From: Acidimicrobiales bacterium
GTDB lineage: Bacteria; Actinomycetota; Acidimicrobiia; Acidimicrobiales; RAAP-2
Length of the DNA: 57,081 nt
Assembly (NCBI GenBank): GCA_017883045.1
Contig: JADGOJ010000004.1
Coordinates: 1 to 57,081 of the forward strand
Direction: 5' to 3'
The notes under the pieces are model-generated. The model did not search any database. It saw nothing but the letters and a program-made list of their open reading frames with translations, and was not told where the DNA came from. Numbering within the stretch: the stretch's first letter is position 1; every line of letters begins with the position of its first letter. Shown one piece after another: positions 15,423 through 19,766 of the stretch. The translations under genes and the position numbers were made by a program.

Positions 15423-15818
15423 TTAGCCTCGGCGGCGCTTCTTGGGGCGACAGCCGTTGTGGGGTAGCGGGGTGACGTCCTTGATGGCGACGACTTCGAT
15501 GCCGGCGGCCGCAATCGAGCGGATCGCGGTCTCACGACCCGAGCCCGGACCGCGCACGAGCACGTCGACCTTCTTCACGCCGTGCTCCATCGCCGCGCGA
15601 GCGCACTTCTCGGCGGCCAGCTGGGCGGCGTAGGGCGTCGACTTGCGCGATCCCTTGAAGCCGACCTGGCCCGACGAGGCCCACGACAGGACGTTGCCCT
15701 CGGGGTCGGTGATGGACACGATCGTGTTGTTGAAGGAGCTCTTGATGTGCGCAACGCCGAAGGCGACGTTCTTGCGTTCCTTCTTGCGACCCTTGCGGCC
15801 GGCGGTCGGCTTAGCCAT
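15423..15818 (-). CDS. rpsK: 30S ribosomal protein S11
   Basis: [46 protein letters not shown]...[13 protein letters not shown]. Confidence 0.98.
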
Positions 15819-16195
15819 TACTTCGTAACCTTCTTCTTACCGGCGACGGTGCGCTTGGGGCCCTTGCGGGTGCGGGCATTGGTGCGGGTGCGCTGGCCCC
15901 GGACGGGCAGGCCCTTGCGATGGCGGATCCCCTGCAGGCAGTTGATCTCCATCTTGCGCTTGATGTCCTGGGCGACGTCACGACGACGGTCACCCTCGAC
16001 CGACAGGTGCTGGTCGATGTAGGCACGAAGCTTGTTGACGTCGGACTCTTCGAGGTCCTTGACGCGCGTGGACTCGTCGATGTCGGTCGCCGCGCAGATC
16101 TGCTGCGCGGTGGTCGGTCCGATTCCGAAAATGTATGTGAGTGAGATCACCGTACGCTTGTCGCGTGGGATGTCTACTCCGGCAATACGGGCCAT
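15818..16195 (-). CDS. rpsM: 30S ribosomal protein S13
   Basis: [33 protein letters not shown]... Confidence 0.98.
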
Positions 16196-16207
16196 GTTCT
16201 TCCTCTC

Positions 16208-16321
16208 CTAGCCCTGGCGCTGCTTGTGGCGTGGGTTCTCGCAGATCACGCGGACGTGACCGGCCCGGCGAATGACTTTGCACTTCTCACACATGGTCTT
16301 GACGCTGGCGCGAACCTTCAT
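16208..16321 (-). CDS. rpmJ: 50S ribosomal protein L36 (zinc-ligand C+ form)
   Basis: Not in ORF track (short); reverse translation [37 protein letters not shown], 37 aa. Confidence 0.97.
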
Positions 16322-16353
16322 GTCGTTTCTTTCTCGATCCTCTGGAACTTGAG

Positions 16354-16578
16354 CTATTTGTAGCGGTAGGTGATGCGGCCGCGGGTCATGTCGTAGGGCG
16401 TGATCTCCACCTGGACCTTGTCGCCGGGCAGGATGCGGATGCGGTGCATGCGCATCTTGCCCGAGCTGTGGGCGAGGACGGTGTAACCGTTCTCCAGCTC
16501 GACGCGGAACATGGCGTTGGGCAATGGCTCGACGACGGTCCCCTCAACGGTAAACGCGTCTTCCTTTGGCTTGCTCAG
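16354..16578 (-). CDS. infA: Translation initiation factor IF-1, apparent CTG start
   Basis: Not in ORF track; reverse translation (L/M)[79 protein letters not shown] seven nt before CTG. Confidence 0.93.
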
Positions 16579-16671
16579 GTTCCTTCTCCTTGTAACGGCA
16601 CTGCGGGACGTGAAAGAGCAACAACTCCTCCACGGATGGACCTCAGGGTGATACCAAGAGGTCGGCTGACC

Positions 16672-16699
16672 ATTCTACCGAATTTTTCCCCGAACGCAA
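16672..16699 (-). promoter_or_regulatory. Candidate infA promoter
   Basis: Minus strand TTGCGT-N16-TAGAAT about 95 nt upstream of the infA start. Confidence 0.5.
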
Positions 16700-16744
16700 A
16701 AGCCGGGGTTCCCTCCGGCCTTCGGCTAGGGGCCGAAAGACAGT

Positions 16745-16775
16745 CTAGGGGTCAAAATGTGACTGGGGACCCTAG
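16745..16775. promoter_or_regulatory. Inverted repeat CTAGGGGTC-N14-GACCCTAG upstream of split-barrel/DosRS-like genes
   Basis: Direct inspection; imperfect by one inserted base; 33 bp before the ATG at 16809. Confidence 0.4.
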
Positions 16776-16808
16776 TTGCGCGGGGCAAAACGGGTTCATG
16801 CTGGGTGG

Positions 16809-17204
16809 ATGACGGCAACGGGTCAGACCCTCTCAGGCGAGCCGCTCTCGCGGGCGGACTGCCTTCGCTTGCTGGGCGGCGTCGATCGGGGCCGGGTCGT
16901 ACTCTCGGTGCGGGCCCTGCCCGCAGCCCTCCCGGCCCGGATTGCCCTCACCGGAGAGGACCATTTGGTGCTGGCGAGCACCGAAGAGGCCGTAATCCTC
17001 GCCGCCCGCCGGGGCGACGTGATCTCGGTGCAGATCGACGGCCTCGAACCCGATGGGACGACCTGGTCGGTCCTGGCGTCAGGGATCGTGGCCAACGCCG
17101 ACGAGGACGAGGCCATCGGCCCAGGCCTGCAGGACGCCGTCGATCACGGCGCCACCCTGCTGACATTGCCCCTGTCGGTGGTGCGAGGCCAGCGCACCCA
17201 CTAG
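16809..17204 (+). CDS. Pyridoxamine 5'-phosphate oxidase-like split-barrel (flavin-binding type) protein
   Basis: LLGGVDRGRVVLSVRALPAALPARIALTGEDHLVLAS...TTWSVLASGIVANADED; pattern of PNPOx-like actinobacterial proteins. Confidence 0.7.
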   Translation: MTATGQTLSGEPLSRADCLRLLGGVDRGRVVLSVRALPAALPARIALTGEDHLVLASTEEAVILAARRGDVISVQIDGLEPDGTTWSVLASGIVANADEDEAIGPGLQDAVDHGATLLTLPLSVVRGQRTH

Positions 17205-17246
17205 CGGCCCTCAACGAGGCCCACGCCGTGTGGAAGGCTGAACGCT

Positions 17247-18383
17247 ATGGCGTACCACCGGATCCTCGATCCCGAGCGGCTTCACGCGCTCATCGACGCG
17301 ATCCTGCTGATCGAGGCCGACGCCAACCTTGACGGCCTGCTCGGGCGCATCGTCGAGACGGCGAGCCAGTTGGTCGGCGCGCGCTACGGAGCGCTGGGCG
17401 TGGTTGCCGGCGACGGCACGACGCTCTCGCGCTTCATCACCTACGGGATCGACGAGGGGACGAGGGCGACCATCGGCGCCGACCCCCACGGCGCCGGAGT
17501 GCTCGGCGAGACGATGCGCCGACGCGAACCCCTCGTCATCGACGAGTTGAGCACCTACCCCAAGGCGGTGGGAGTCCCCGAGGGACACCCGCCGATGCAC
17601 CGGTTCCTCGGCGTGCCCGTCACGACCGGTGACGGCCACATCTTCGGCAACCTCTACCTCACCGATCCGCTCGACGGCGAGCCCTTCAGCGAAGAGGACG
17701 CGCAACTCGTCGTGGGCTTCGGCCGGGCGGCCGGCCTGGTCATCGACCAGGCGACGCTGCGCAGCCAACTTCGTGAGCTGACCCTCAGTGAAGAGCGCGA
17801 ACGACTGGCGCGCGACCTGCACGACACGGTCATCCAACGGCTCTTCGGGGCTGGGCTCGCATTGCAGATATCGCTCTCCTCGGTGCTCGACGACGACGTG
17901 CGCAGTCGGATCAACAACGTCCTTGACGAACTCGACACCACGATCAAGGAGATCCGTACCACGATCTTCGAGATCGACCAGGAGCAGGCGACCGACGTCT
18001 CGCTCCAGAGCAGGATCAACTCGCTGACGATGGAGGTCGCCAACCGACTCGGGGTCCACACCGACGTGAAGATCGAAGCGGGCATCGACGCCGCCATCGG
18101 CCCGCACTGCGCGCATCACACGATCCAGGCGCTTCGCGAGATCCTGTCGAACATCGTTCGCCACTCCAACGCCTCGGCGGTGGAGATCAAGGTGTCCACG
18201 AAGGGCAACCTGATCGAGGTCGTGGTACGCGACAACGGCGTCGGATTCACGCCAAATATCGGGCCAGGACGGGGTTTGCGCAACCTGGCGTCGCGCGCGC
18301 GCGAGCTGGGTGGGGATTGCACGATCAATTCCGAGATCGGCCGTGGCACAATGGTTCGATGGACCGCCAACCGATTGGACTGA
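17247..18383 (+). CDS. GAF-domain histidine kinase, DosS/DevS-like (single GAF)
   Basis: GAF with EGHPPMHRFLGVPV...FGNLYLTD, HisKA_3 H-box LARDLHDTVIQRLFGAGLALQ, ATPase motifs DNGVGF and GRGLRNLASRA. Confidence 0.92.
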   Translation: MAYHRILDPERLHALIDAILLIEADANLDGLLGRIVETASQLVGARYGALGVVAGDGTTLSRFITYGIDEGTRATIGADPHGAGVLGETMRRREPLVIDELSTYPKAVGVPEGHPPMHRFLGVPVTTGDGHIFGNLYLTDPLDGEPFSEEDAQLVVGFGRAAGLVIDQATLRSQLRELTLSEERERLARDLHDTVIQRLFGAGLALQISLSSVLDDDVRSRINNVLDELDTTIKEIRTTIFEIDQEQATDVSLQSRINSLTMEVANRLGVHTDVKIEAGIDAAIGPHCAHHTIQALREILSNIVRHSNASAVEIKVSTKGNLIEVVVRDNGVGFTPNIGPGRGLRNLASRARELGGDCTINSEIGRGTMVRWTANRLD

Positions 18384-18384
18384 T

Positions 18385-19029
18385 GTGATCCGCCTGCTGC
18401 TTGTTGATGACCACGAGATCGTCCGCCGGGGCCTTCGCGAGCTGCTCGAGGTCGAGGCCGACCTGAAGGTCGTCGCCGAGGCGGGGTCGCTCGACGAGGC
18501 GCTCGCGCTCAACATCGACGAGATCGACGTTGCCGTGCTCGACGTCCGCTTGCCCGACGGCAGCGGTGTCGACCTCTGTCGGCTGCTGCGCGAGAAGCGT
18601 CCGGAACTGGCGTGCCTGATGCTGACGTCATTCGCCGACAACGAGGCGCTCAACGCGTCGGTGCTCGCCGGTGCGAGGGGCTACGTCTTGAAGAACGTCC
18701 GCGGCGACGACTTGGTCGGCGCCATCCGCCAGGTCGCCGACGGCGAGATGCTCCTCACCAACGATCAGATCGAGCGGGCCCGCGAGCGGTTGCGTCGCCA
18801 GATCACCGAGGACATCCGACTCGAGAGCCTGAGCGCCCAGGAGAGCCGCATTCTCGAGCTGTTGAGCGAGGGGCTGAGCAACCGCGAGATCGCCGAGGTC
18901 ATGTTCCTCGCCGAGAAGACGGTCAAGAACTACGTGTCGAACCTGCTCGCGAAGCTCGGCTTCCAGCGCCGCACCGAGGCGGCGCTCTTCGCGCAGCGTC
19001 AGTACGACCGCAGCCACCCTCAGGACTAG
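18385..19029 (+). CDS. NarL/DosR-family LuxR-type response regulator
   Basis: VIRLLLVDDHEIVRRGLRELL...VLDVRLPDGSG...LSAQESRILELLSEGLSNREIAEVMFLAEKTVKNYVSNLLAKLGFQRRTEAA; starts at GTG one nt after the kinase stop. Confidence 0.93.
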   Translation: MIRLLLVDDHEIVRRGLRELLEVEADLKVVAEAGSLDEALALNIDEIDVAVLDVRLPDGSGVDLCRLLREKRPELACLMLTSFADNEALNASVLAGARGYVLKNVRGDDLVGAIRQVADGEMLLTNDQIERARERLRRQITEDIRLESLSAQESRILELLSEGLSNREIAEVMFLAEKTVKNYVSNLLAKLGFQRRTEAALFAQRQYDRSHPQD

Positions 19030-19766
19030 GCGACGGTGAAGACCTCGGGCCCCTCGTCGGTGACGGCGATGGTGTGCTCGAAGTGCGCCGAGAGCTGGCC
19101 GTCCTGGGTCAAGACACTCCAGCCGTCCTCGAGCACGTAGGTGTCGTAGGAACCGACGTTGATCATGGGCTCGATGGCGAAGACCATGCCCTCTTTCAGC
19201 GTGGGCCCGGGCGTGCCCGGCCAGTAGTTGGGCACTTGGGGGCTCTCGTGCATCGCGGTGCCGATCGCGTGGCCAACGTACTCGCGCACTACGGAGAATC
19301 CGGCGGCCTCGGCGACGTCCTGGACCGCGCGGCCGACCTCGTGCAGCCGATTGCCGATGACCAGTTGGTCGATGCCGGCCCACAGGGAGCGCTCGGTCAC
19401 CTCGATCAACTTGCGCGCGAGGTCGCTGATCTCGCCAACGCCCGCGGTGTACGCGGCATCTCCGTGGTAGCCCTCGATGATGGCGCCGCAGTCGACCGAG
19501 ATGATGTCGCCCTCTCGCAGCACGTAGCCGCCCGGGATGCCGTGCACGATCATGTCGTTGGGACTCGTGCAGATGACCGCCGGGAACCCGTGGTAGTTGA
19601 GGAAGTTCGAGCGCGCGCCGCGCTTGGCGAGCACCTCGGCCGCGACCTCGTTCAGTTGCATCGTCGTGACACCGGGGCGGATCGCCGCGCGGGTCGCCTC
19701 GTGCATCTCGGCCACCACCTGGCCGGCCTTGCGCATCTTCTTGAGCTCCTCGGCCGAGCGCCTCAC
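19026..19766 (-). CDS. map: Methionine aminopeptidase type I
   Basis: MRRSAEELKKMRKAGQVVAEMHEATRAAIRPGVTTMQLNEVA...; metal-ligand motifs. Confidence 0.97.
   Translation of the reverse strand: MRRSAEELKKMRKAGQVVAEMHEATRAAIRPGVTTMQLNEVAAEVLAKRGARSNFLNYHGFPAVICTSPNDMIVHGIPGGYVLREGDIISVDCGAIIEGYHGDAAYTAGVGEISDLARKLIEVTERSLWAGIDQLVIGNRLHEVGRAVQDVAEAAGFSVVREYVGHAIGTAMHESPQVPNYWPGTPGPTLKEGMVFAIEPMINVGSYDTYVLEDGWSVLTQDGQLSAHFEHTIAVTDEGPEVFTVA

Follow-up and report, generated by a model that had tools for sequence, protein, structure and literature searches.

A single-GAF histidine kinase of an Acidimicrobiales bacterium is very probably a Dos-type heme gas sensor paired with a DosR-like regulator

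The mycobacterial kinases DosS and DosT carry a heme-binding GAF domain (GAF-A) followed by a second GAF domain (GAF-B). Could a kinase with one GAF domain only be a heme gas sensor of the same type? This question is raised by a gene at positions 17247–18383 (+ strand) of a 57,081-nucleotide stretch of Acidimicrobiales DNA (GCA_017883045.1, contig JADGOJ010000004.1, positions 1–57,081), hereafter called the window. The gene has an ATG start and encodes a sensor histidine kinase of 378 aa that contains VPEGHPPMHRFLGVPVTTGDGHIFGNLYLTD. The computed domain order was a heme-type GAF domain (residues 26–167; 17322–17747, + strand; Pfam GAF_2, E = 1.9e-18) followed by HisKA_3 dimerisation/phosphotransfer and HATPase_c domains (residues 183–373; 17793–18365, + strand), with domain limits at 183–244 and 293–373, respectively. 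The catalytic residues of this kinase core were intact, and the best PDB match to the kinase part in a sequence search was the catalytic domain of DosT (3zxq). The predicted phosphoacceptor H192 of the RDLHD motif (17820–17822, + strand) as well as E298, N302, D329, G331, and G333 were invariant in an alignment of 39 full-length single-GAF kinases.

The original prediction, made from the DNA sequence, described a kinase with one GAF domain and no transmembrane segment, and this description was borne out: Pfam detected a single GAF_2 domain, and no transmembrane segment was found in the 378-aa kinase (highest 19-residue Kyte-Doolittle mean, 1.35). A GAF-B domain was absent in the Pfam search of the 378 residues, the GAF-A domain running straight into HisKA_3. 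The open frame comprises 392 residues, with an in-frame stop 14 residues upstream of the ATG, and therefore no second GAF domain is hidden in front. Since GAF-B was searched for and found to be absent, the kinase is a single-GAF variant of the Dos family, distinct from DosS or DosT proper. The kinase names NarX, MctS, LiaS, and MadS from NCBIfam were dropped, as all matches were far below the cut-offs.

H114 in an HPPM motif and Y137 in an NLYL motif had been proposed to correspond to H149 and Y171 of DosS, and the computed alignment with DosT and DosS agreed, as did the coordinates of both codons. H114 (17586–17588, CAC, + strand), the predicted proximal heme ligand, aligned with DosS H149 and DosT H147, and Y137 (17655–17657, TAC, + strand), the predicted distal Tyr, aligned with DosS Y171 and DosT Y169. 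The one additional loop residue that had also been noted relative to DosS was located to a hairpin (TTGDGHIFG versus RIRD-EVFG), and because of it the spacing between His and Tyr is 23 in the kinase compared to 22 in DosT and DosS. This extra residue was common in the genus-level clade without being general in the wider family. A sequence search of the PDB gave the GAF-A domain of DosT as top match (2vzw; 132 bits, E = 1.8e-37), with DosS GAF-A entries next. In DosS, the spectrum of His-ligated heme was lost in the H149A variant and gas discrimination was lost in the Y171F variant (PMC4082495).

A predicted structure of the GAF domain alone (pLDDT 87.8, pTM 0.85; 89 and 95 for the blocks with H114 and Y137) was compared with GAF-A structures of DosT and of DosS, the latter as the original prediction had proposed, and its fold matched heme-bound DosT (2vzw) at 1.2 Å over 144 columns with 50% identity (TM-score 0.93 by target length). 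In a Foldseek search with this model, the first 17 PDB chains were all DosT or DosS GAF-A domains (E = 1e-16 to 4e-14), mostly at 1.2–1.5 Å. The next GAF structures showed about 23% identity or lower and E = 4e-9, a value some seven orders of magnitude above that of the best match. The full-length kinase model was of moderate confidence (pLDDT 78, pTM 0.48) and yielded the identical first 17 chains.

A third residue bears on which gas or redox signal may be read. G51 (17397–17399, + strand) is found in the alignment at the position of DosS Glu87 and DosT Gly85, which places the kinase nearer to the O2 sensor DosT than to DosS. It has been proposed that the Glu87 site of DosS governs O2 access and auto-oxidation, a reading that is contested in a review (PMC4082495). 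G51 was invariant among the 39 closest relatives. Its frequency in a larger set of GAF-A-like domains is biased because one seed pattern for that set includes it, a pattern that was not used in the search yielding the 39 relatives. We consider it rather unlikely, with a small but real chance, that the GAF domain binds heme and acts mainly as a redox (Fe3+/Fe2+) or NO/CO sensor instead of sensing O2 directly. A redox-sensing role has been advocated for DosS itself (PMC4082495), and acidimicrobia of bog and palsa, the sites from which related MAGs originate, probably face NO and redox swings. However, the invariant Gly is as in DosT, and stable O2 binding has been reported for the E87G and E87A variants of DosS (PMC4082495).

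The conservation of the two heme-site residues was determined next to that of other GAF domains. H114, P115, and Y137 were invariant in the 39 full-length single-GAF kinases and in all aligned GAF-A domains (104/104) from one- and two-GAF kinases of two phyla. In the larger set of GAF-A-like domains, His was present in 124 out of 125 and Tyr in 125 out of 125, the profile used for gathering this set having been made from members bearing both residues. Among 35 GAF-B and other GAF domains encoded at these loci, His was seen in two and Tyr in one. Given this contrast, the conservation of H114 and Y137 among the compared sequences exceeds chance. It is quite improbable that His and Tyr persist as structural relics of this fold and that the domain binds another ligand (a nucleotide or a tetrapyrrole intermediate) or none. 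The remaining invariant residues are indeed fold residues (Gly, Pro, and Phe), and biochemical evidence for heme is confined to mycobacterial members in the literature covered, but the GAF-B domains of the same proteins keep the fold and yet lose both residues, and an HP motif and Tyr present throughout two phyla are hard to explain without a role in ligand binding.

Single-GAF kinases were the commonest form among the fetched relatives and occurred in Acidimicrobiia, in other Actinomycetota (Desertimonas and Glycomyces), and in Chloroflexota, while the two-GAF form was carried by Streptomyces, Actinomadura, Micromonospora, and others. A quick tree with 112 rows had the two-GAF proteins nested among single-GAF proteins and required at least four changes between the forms; the direction of change is unproven by this tree because it was rooted at the midpoint and its sampling was weighted towards the query. 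The spacing from the last GAF helix to RDLHD was identical (offset 0) in 71 out of 75 single-GAF kinases and longer by one heptad (+7) in three, and the spacing from GAF-B was likewise at offset 0 in 18 out of 18 two-GAF kinases. The coiled-coil register is thus the same, and the heme GAF domain therefore fills the coupling position that is held by GAF-B in DosS-like proteins. Although GAF-B is absent here and its role in DosS and DosT is unsettled, it is very improbable that single-GAF kinases are degenerate versions of DosT that have lost GAF-B along with gas control and serve a DosR-like regulator as constitutive kinases or phosphatases, since the spacing to the H-box is exact or off by a heptad, the catalytic residues are invariant, and single-GAF forms are many and mostly outside the two-GAF group.

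The original prediction had also called the protein a minimal heme kinase. A single-GAF variant of the Dos type was supported, but "minimal" in the sense of rare or derived was not, because single-GAF kinases are widespread and the two-GAF kinases are nested among them. A tentative reading, for which we claim less than even support, is that the single-GAF kinase is the older Dos form, with the heme GAF domain placed on the coiled coil, and that GAF-B was inserted later in the same register; the O2-DosR circuit would then be pre-mycobacterial and reach Acidimicrobiia and Chloroflexota. If so, single-GAF kinases would be natural minimal systems for the switching of a HisKA_3 kinase by a heme GAF domain. 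Two further arrangements were observed. In some same-genus genomes, the operon was replaced by another single-GAF kinase (about 40% identity) with a divergently transcribed regulator. A kinase from Chloroflexota (Anaerolineae) contained two tandem GAF domains that both have the heme-type His and Tyr, in contrast to DosS and DosT, in which only GAF-A has them.

The kinase gene is the second of three genes in an operon. The first gene (16809–17204, + strand) encodes a putative PNPOx-like flavoprotein (PF12900 Pyridox_ox_2, Pfam E = 9.8e-9), and the third (18385–19029, + strand; GTG start, 1 nt past the kinase stop) encodes a response regulator of the NarL family with a receiver and a GerE HTH domain that is nearest to DosR. 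Its best PDB match was DevR/DosR (3c3w; 204 bits versus 125 for the runner-up), 110 out of 210 residues were identical to DosR (52%), and the recognition helix AEKTVKNYVS was retained. The gene order PNPOx-kinase-regulator, located between rpsM/infA and map, was kept in same-genus orthologues. The sensor operon is located on the opposite strand inside a ribosomal-protein region (15818–19766; rpoA-rpsM on one side, map-adk-secY on the other), and the regulator gene shares a 4-base overlap with the convergent map gene.

Upstream of the operon, a DosR-like box, GTGACTGGGGACCCTA (16759–16774, + strand), was detected 50 nt before the PNPOx start codon. This likely operator was conserved among orthologues and its distance was constant in most of them; a GKGAC-N4-GDCCCTA box was present in 21 out of 26 same-genus kinase loci compared to 0.05 expected in shuffled sequence. 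Compared to GGGACTTNNGNCCCT, the stringent DosR motif applied to M. smegmatis (PMC6448022), the box showed 2 mismatches over 12 specified positions. The genus box has T instead of G at the second position, which counts against the DosR-type reading. Two diverged orthologues have GGGAC. A candidate −10 element, CATGCT (16797–16802, + strand), is found 6 nt before the PNPOx start and was conserved in most orthologues; an element at this position would point to a leaderless mRNA, the box then covering the −35 region.

PNPOx genes are linked to DosR-type regulation in other bacteria as well. The PNPOx-related MSMEG_5243 of M. smegmatis is counted as a DosR-regulon protein (PMC6292918), and SCO0214 (PNPOx) of S. 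coelicolor bears a predicted OsdR site at −50 (PMC5069765), which supports the operon as a DosR-type circuit. PNPOx-like genes were found near the kinase in 18 out of 63 other single-GAF loci and in 10 out of 31 two-GAF loci. Besides, a short PNPOx-like protein (PF12900) was seen to adjoin Dos-type kinases in other families.

Together, the alignment, the fold match, the invariant His and Tyr, the DosR-like partner, and the DosR-like box point to a Dos-type heme kinase with one GAF domain. We consider it highly likely that the kinase is a soluble Dos-type heme gas sensor, in which a single heme GAF domain on a kinase core drives the DosR-like regulator. Very probably, a soil or bog actinobacterium here uses a pared-down DosT with one heme-binding domain that is paired with a DosR-like regulator. 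We infer that the 378-aa protein binds heme and has gas-controlled kinase activity, working like a DosT-type heme sensor of O2, NO, and CO. In this scheme, the GAF domain would hold heme (the genome encodes a ferrochelatase); H114 would be the proximal ligand, and Y137 would form a hydrogen bond to the bound gas. The kinase would be inactive while its heme carries O2 and would become active, through the helix from GAF to the DHp domain, once O2 is lost or NO or CO binds. H192 would then hand its phosphate to the adjacent regulator, which is predicted to bind the box at 16759–16774 and to activate its own PNPOx-kinase-regulator operon, forming a positive loop under low oxygen.

Compared with known systems, the kinase resembles DosT (Rv2027c) of M. 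tuberculosis in the fold of the heme GAF-A, the proximal His, the distal Tyr, a Gly where DosS has Glu87, the HisKA_3/HATPase_c core, and the DosR-type partner. However, DosT has a GAF-B domain and its gene lies away from dosR, whereas the kinase described here has one GAF domain and an extra hairpin residue and is encoded in one operon with the regulator. The other M. tuberculosis kinase, DosS/DevS (Rv3132c), is alike in the GAF-A fold, in the His149 and Tyr171 equivalents, and in a gene adjoining that of the regulator, but its distal network contains Glu87 and His89, where the present kinase has G51 and V53, and it carries two GAF domains. OsdK-OsdR (SCO0203-SCO0204) of S. coelicolor also combines a DosT-like kinase with a DosR-like regulator, and OsdR boxes were predicted before osdR, usp, and a PNPOx gene (PMC5069765); OsdK, however, resembles full-length DevS/DosT (41–42% identity), and the gene order is different. 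PolS-PolR of Microlunatus phosphovorus is a DevS/DevR-like pair proposed to respond to oxygen change, but PolS, a putative heme protein, has two GAF domains.

The single-GAF form is a common variant of a known sensor family, and its sequences are already present in public databases. A search of the open-access literature, subscription papers being outside its scope, found no paper on single-GAF Dos kinases. The passage of the heme signal from GAF-A past GAF-B to the kinase in DosS and DosT could be studied in a simpler setting: a naturally occurring kinase whose heme GAF domain stands alone, at the same spacing to the DHp helix, would make signal transfer testable in a small soluble protein. 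The locus also suggests that DosR-type oxygen control occurs in environmental acidimicrobia, beyond mycobacteria and streptomycetes.

A wider regulon was searched for with the box. The strict palindrome GGGACTNNAGTCCC was not in excess in the window (26 found versus 36 expected) or in the genome (75 versus 74 for a reversed control), and the box was recognised only by its conservation among orthologues. A genome-wide regulon predicted from GKGACNNNNGRCCCTA was not supported (64 matches versus 50 for the reversed-pattern control, summed over 37 genomes). Within the same genome, no clear box was found at USP or HSP20 genes; a weaker GCGACTTTCGACCC precedes one USP start by about 124 nt, although it falls inside another reading frame. 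The sole other strict box in the genome, GTGACTTTGGGCCCTA (L097 1513–1528; G000:C138:8912–8927), was found 157 nt before the start of an ABC-transporter ATPase gene. In related genomes, single DosR-like boxes were found before genes for HSP20, USP, BON, GAPDH, cytochrome b, and malic enzyme; the HSP20 and USP examples came from two genomes, with no clear genome-wide excess. Some of the genes behind these boxes belong to typical DosR-regulon families.
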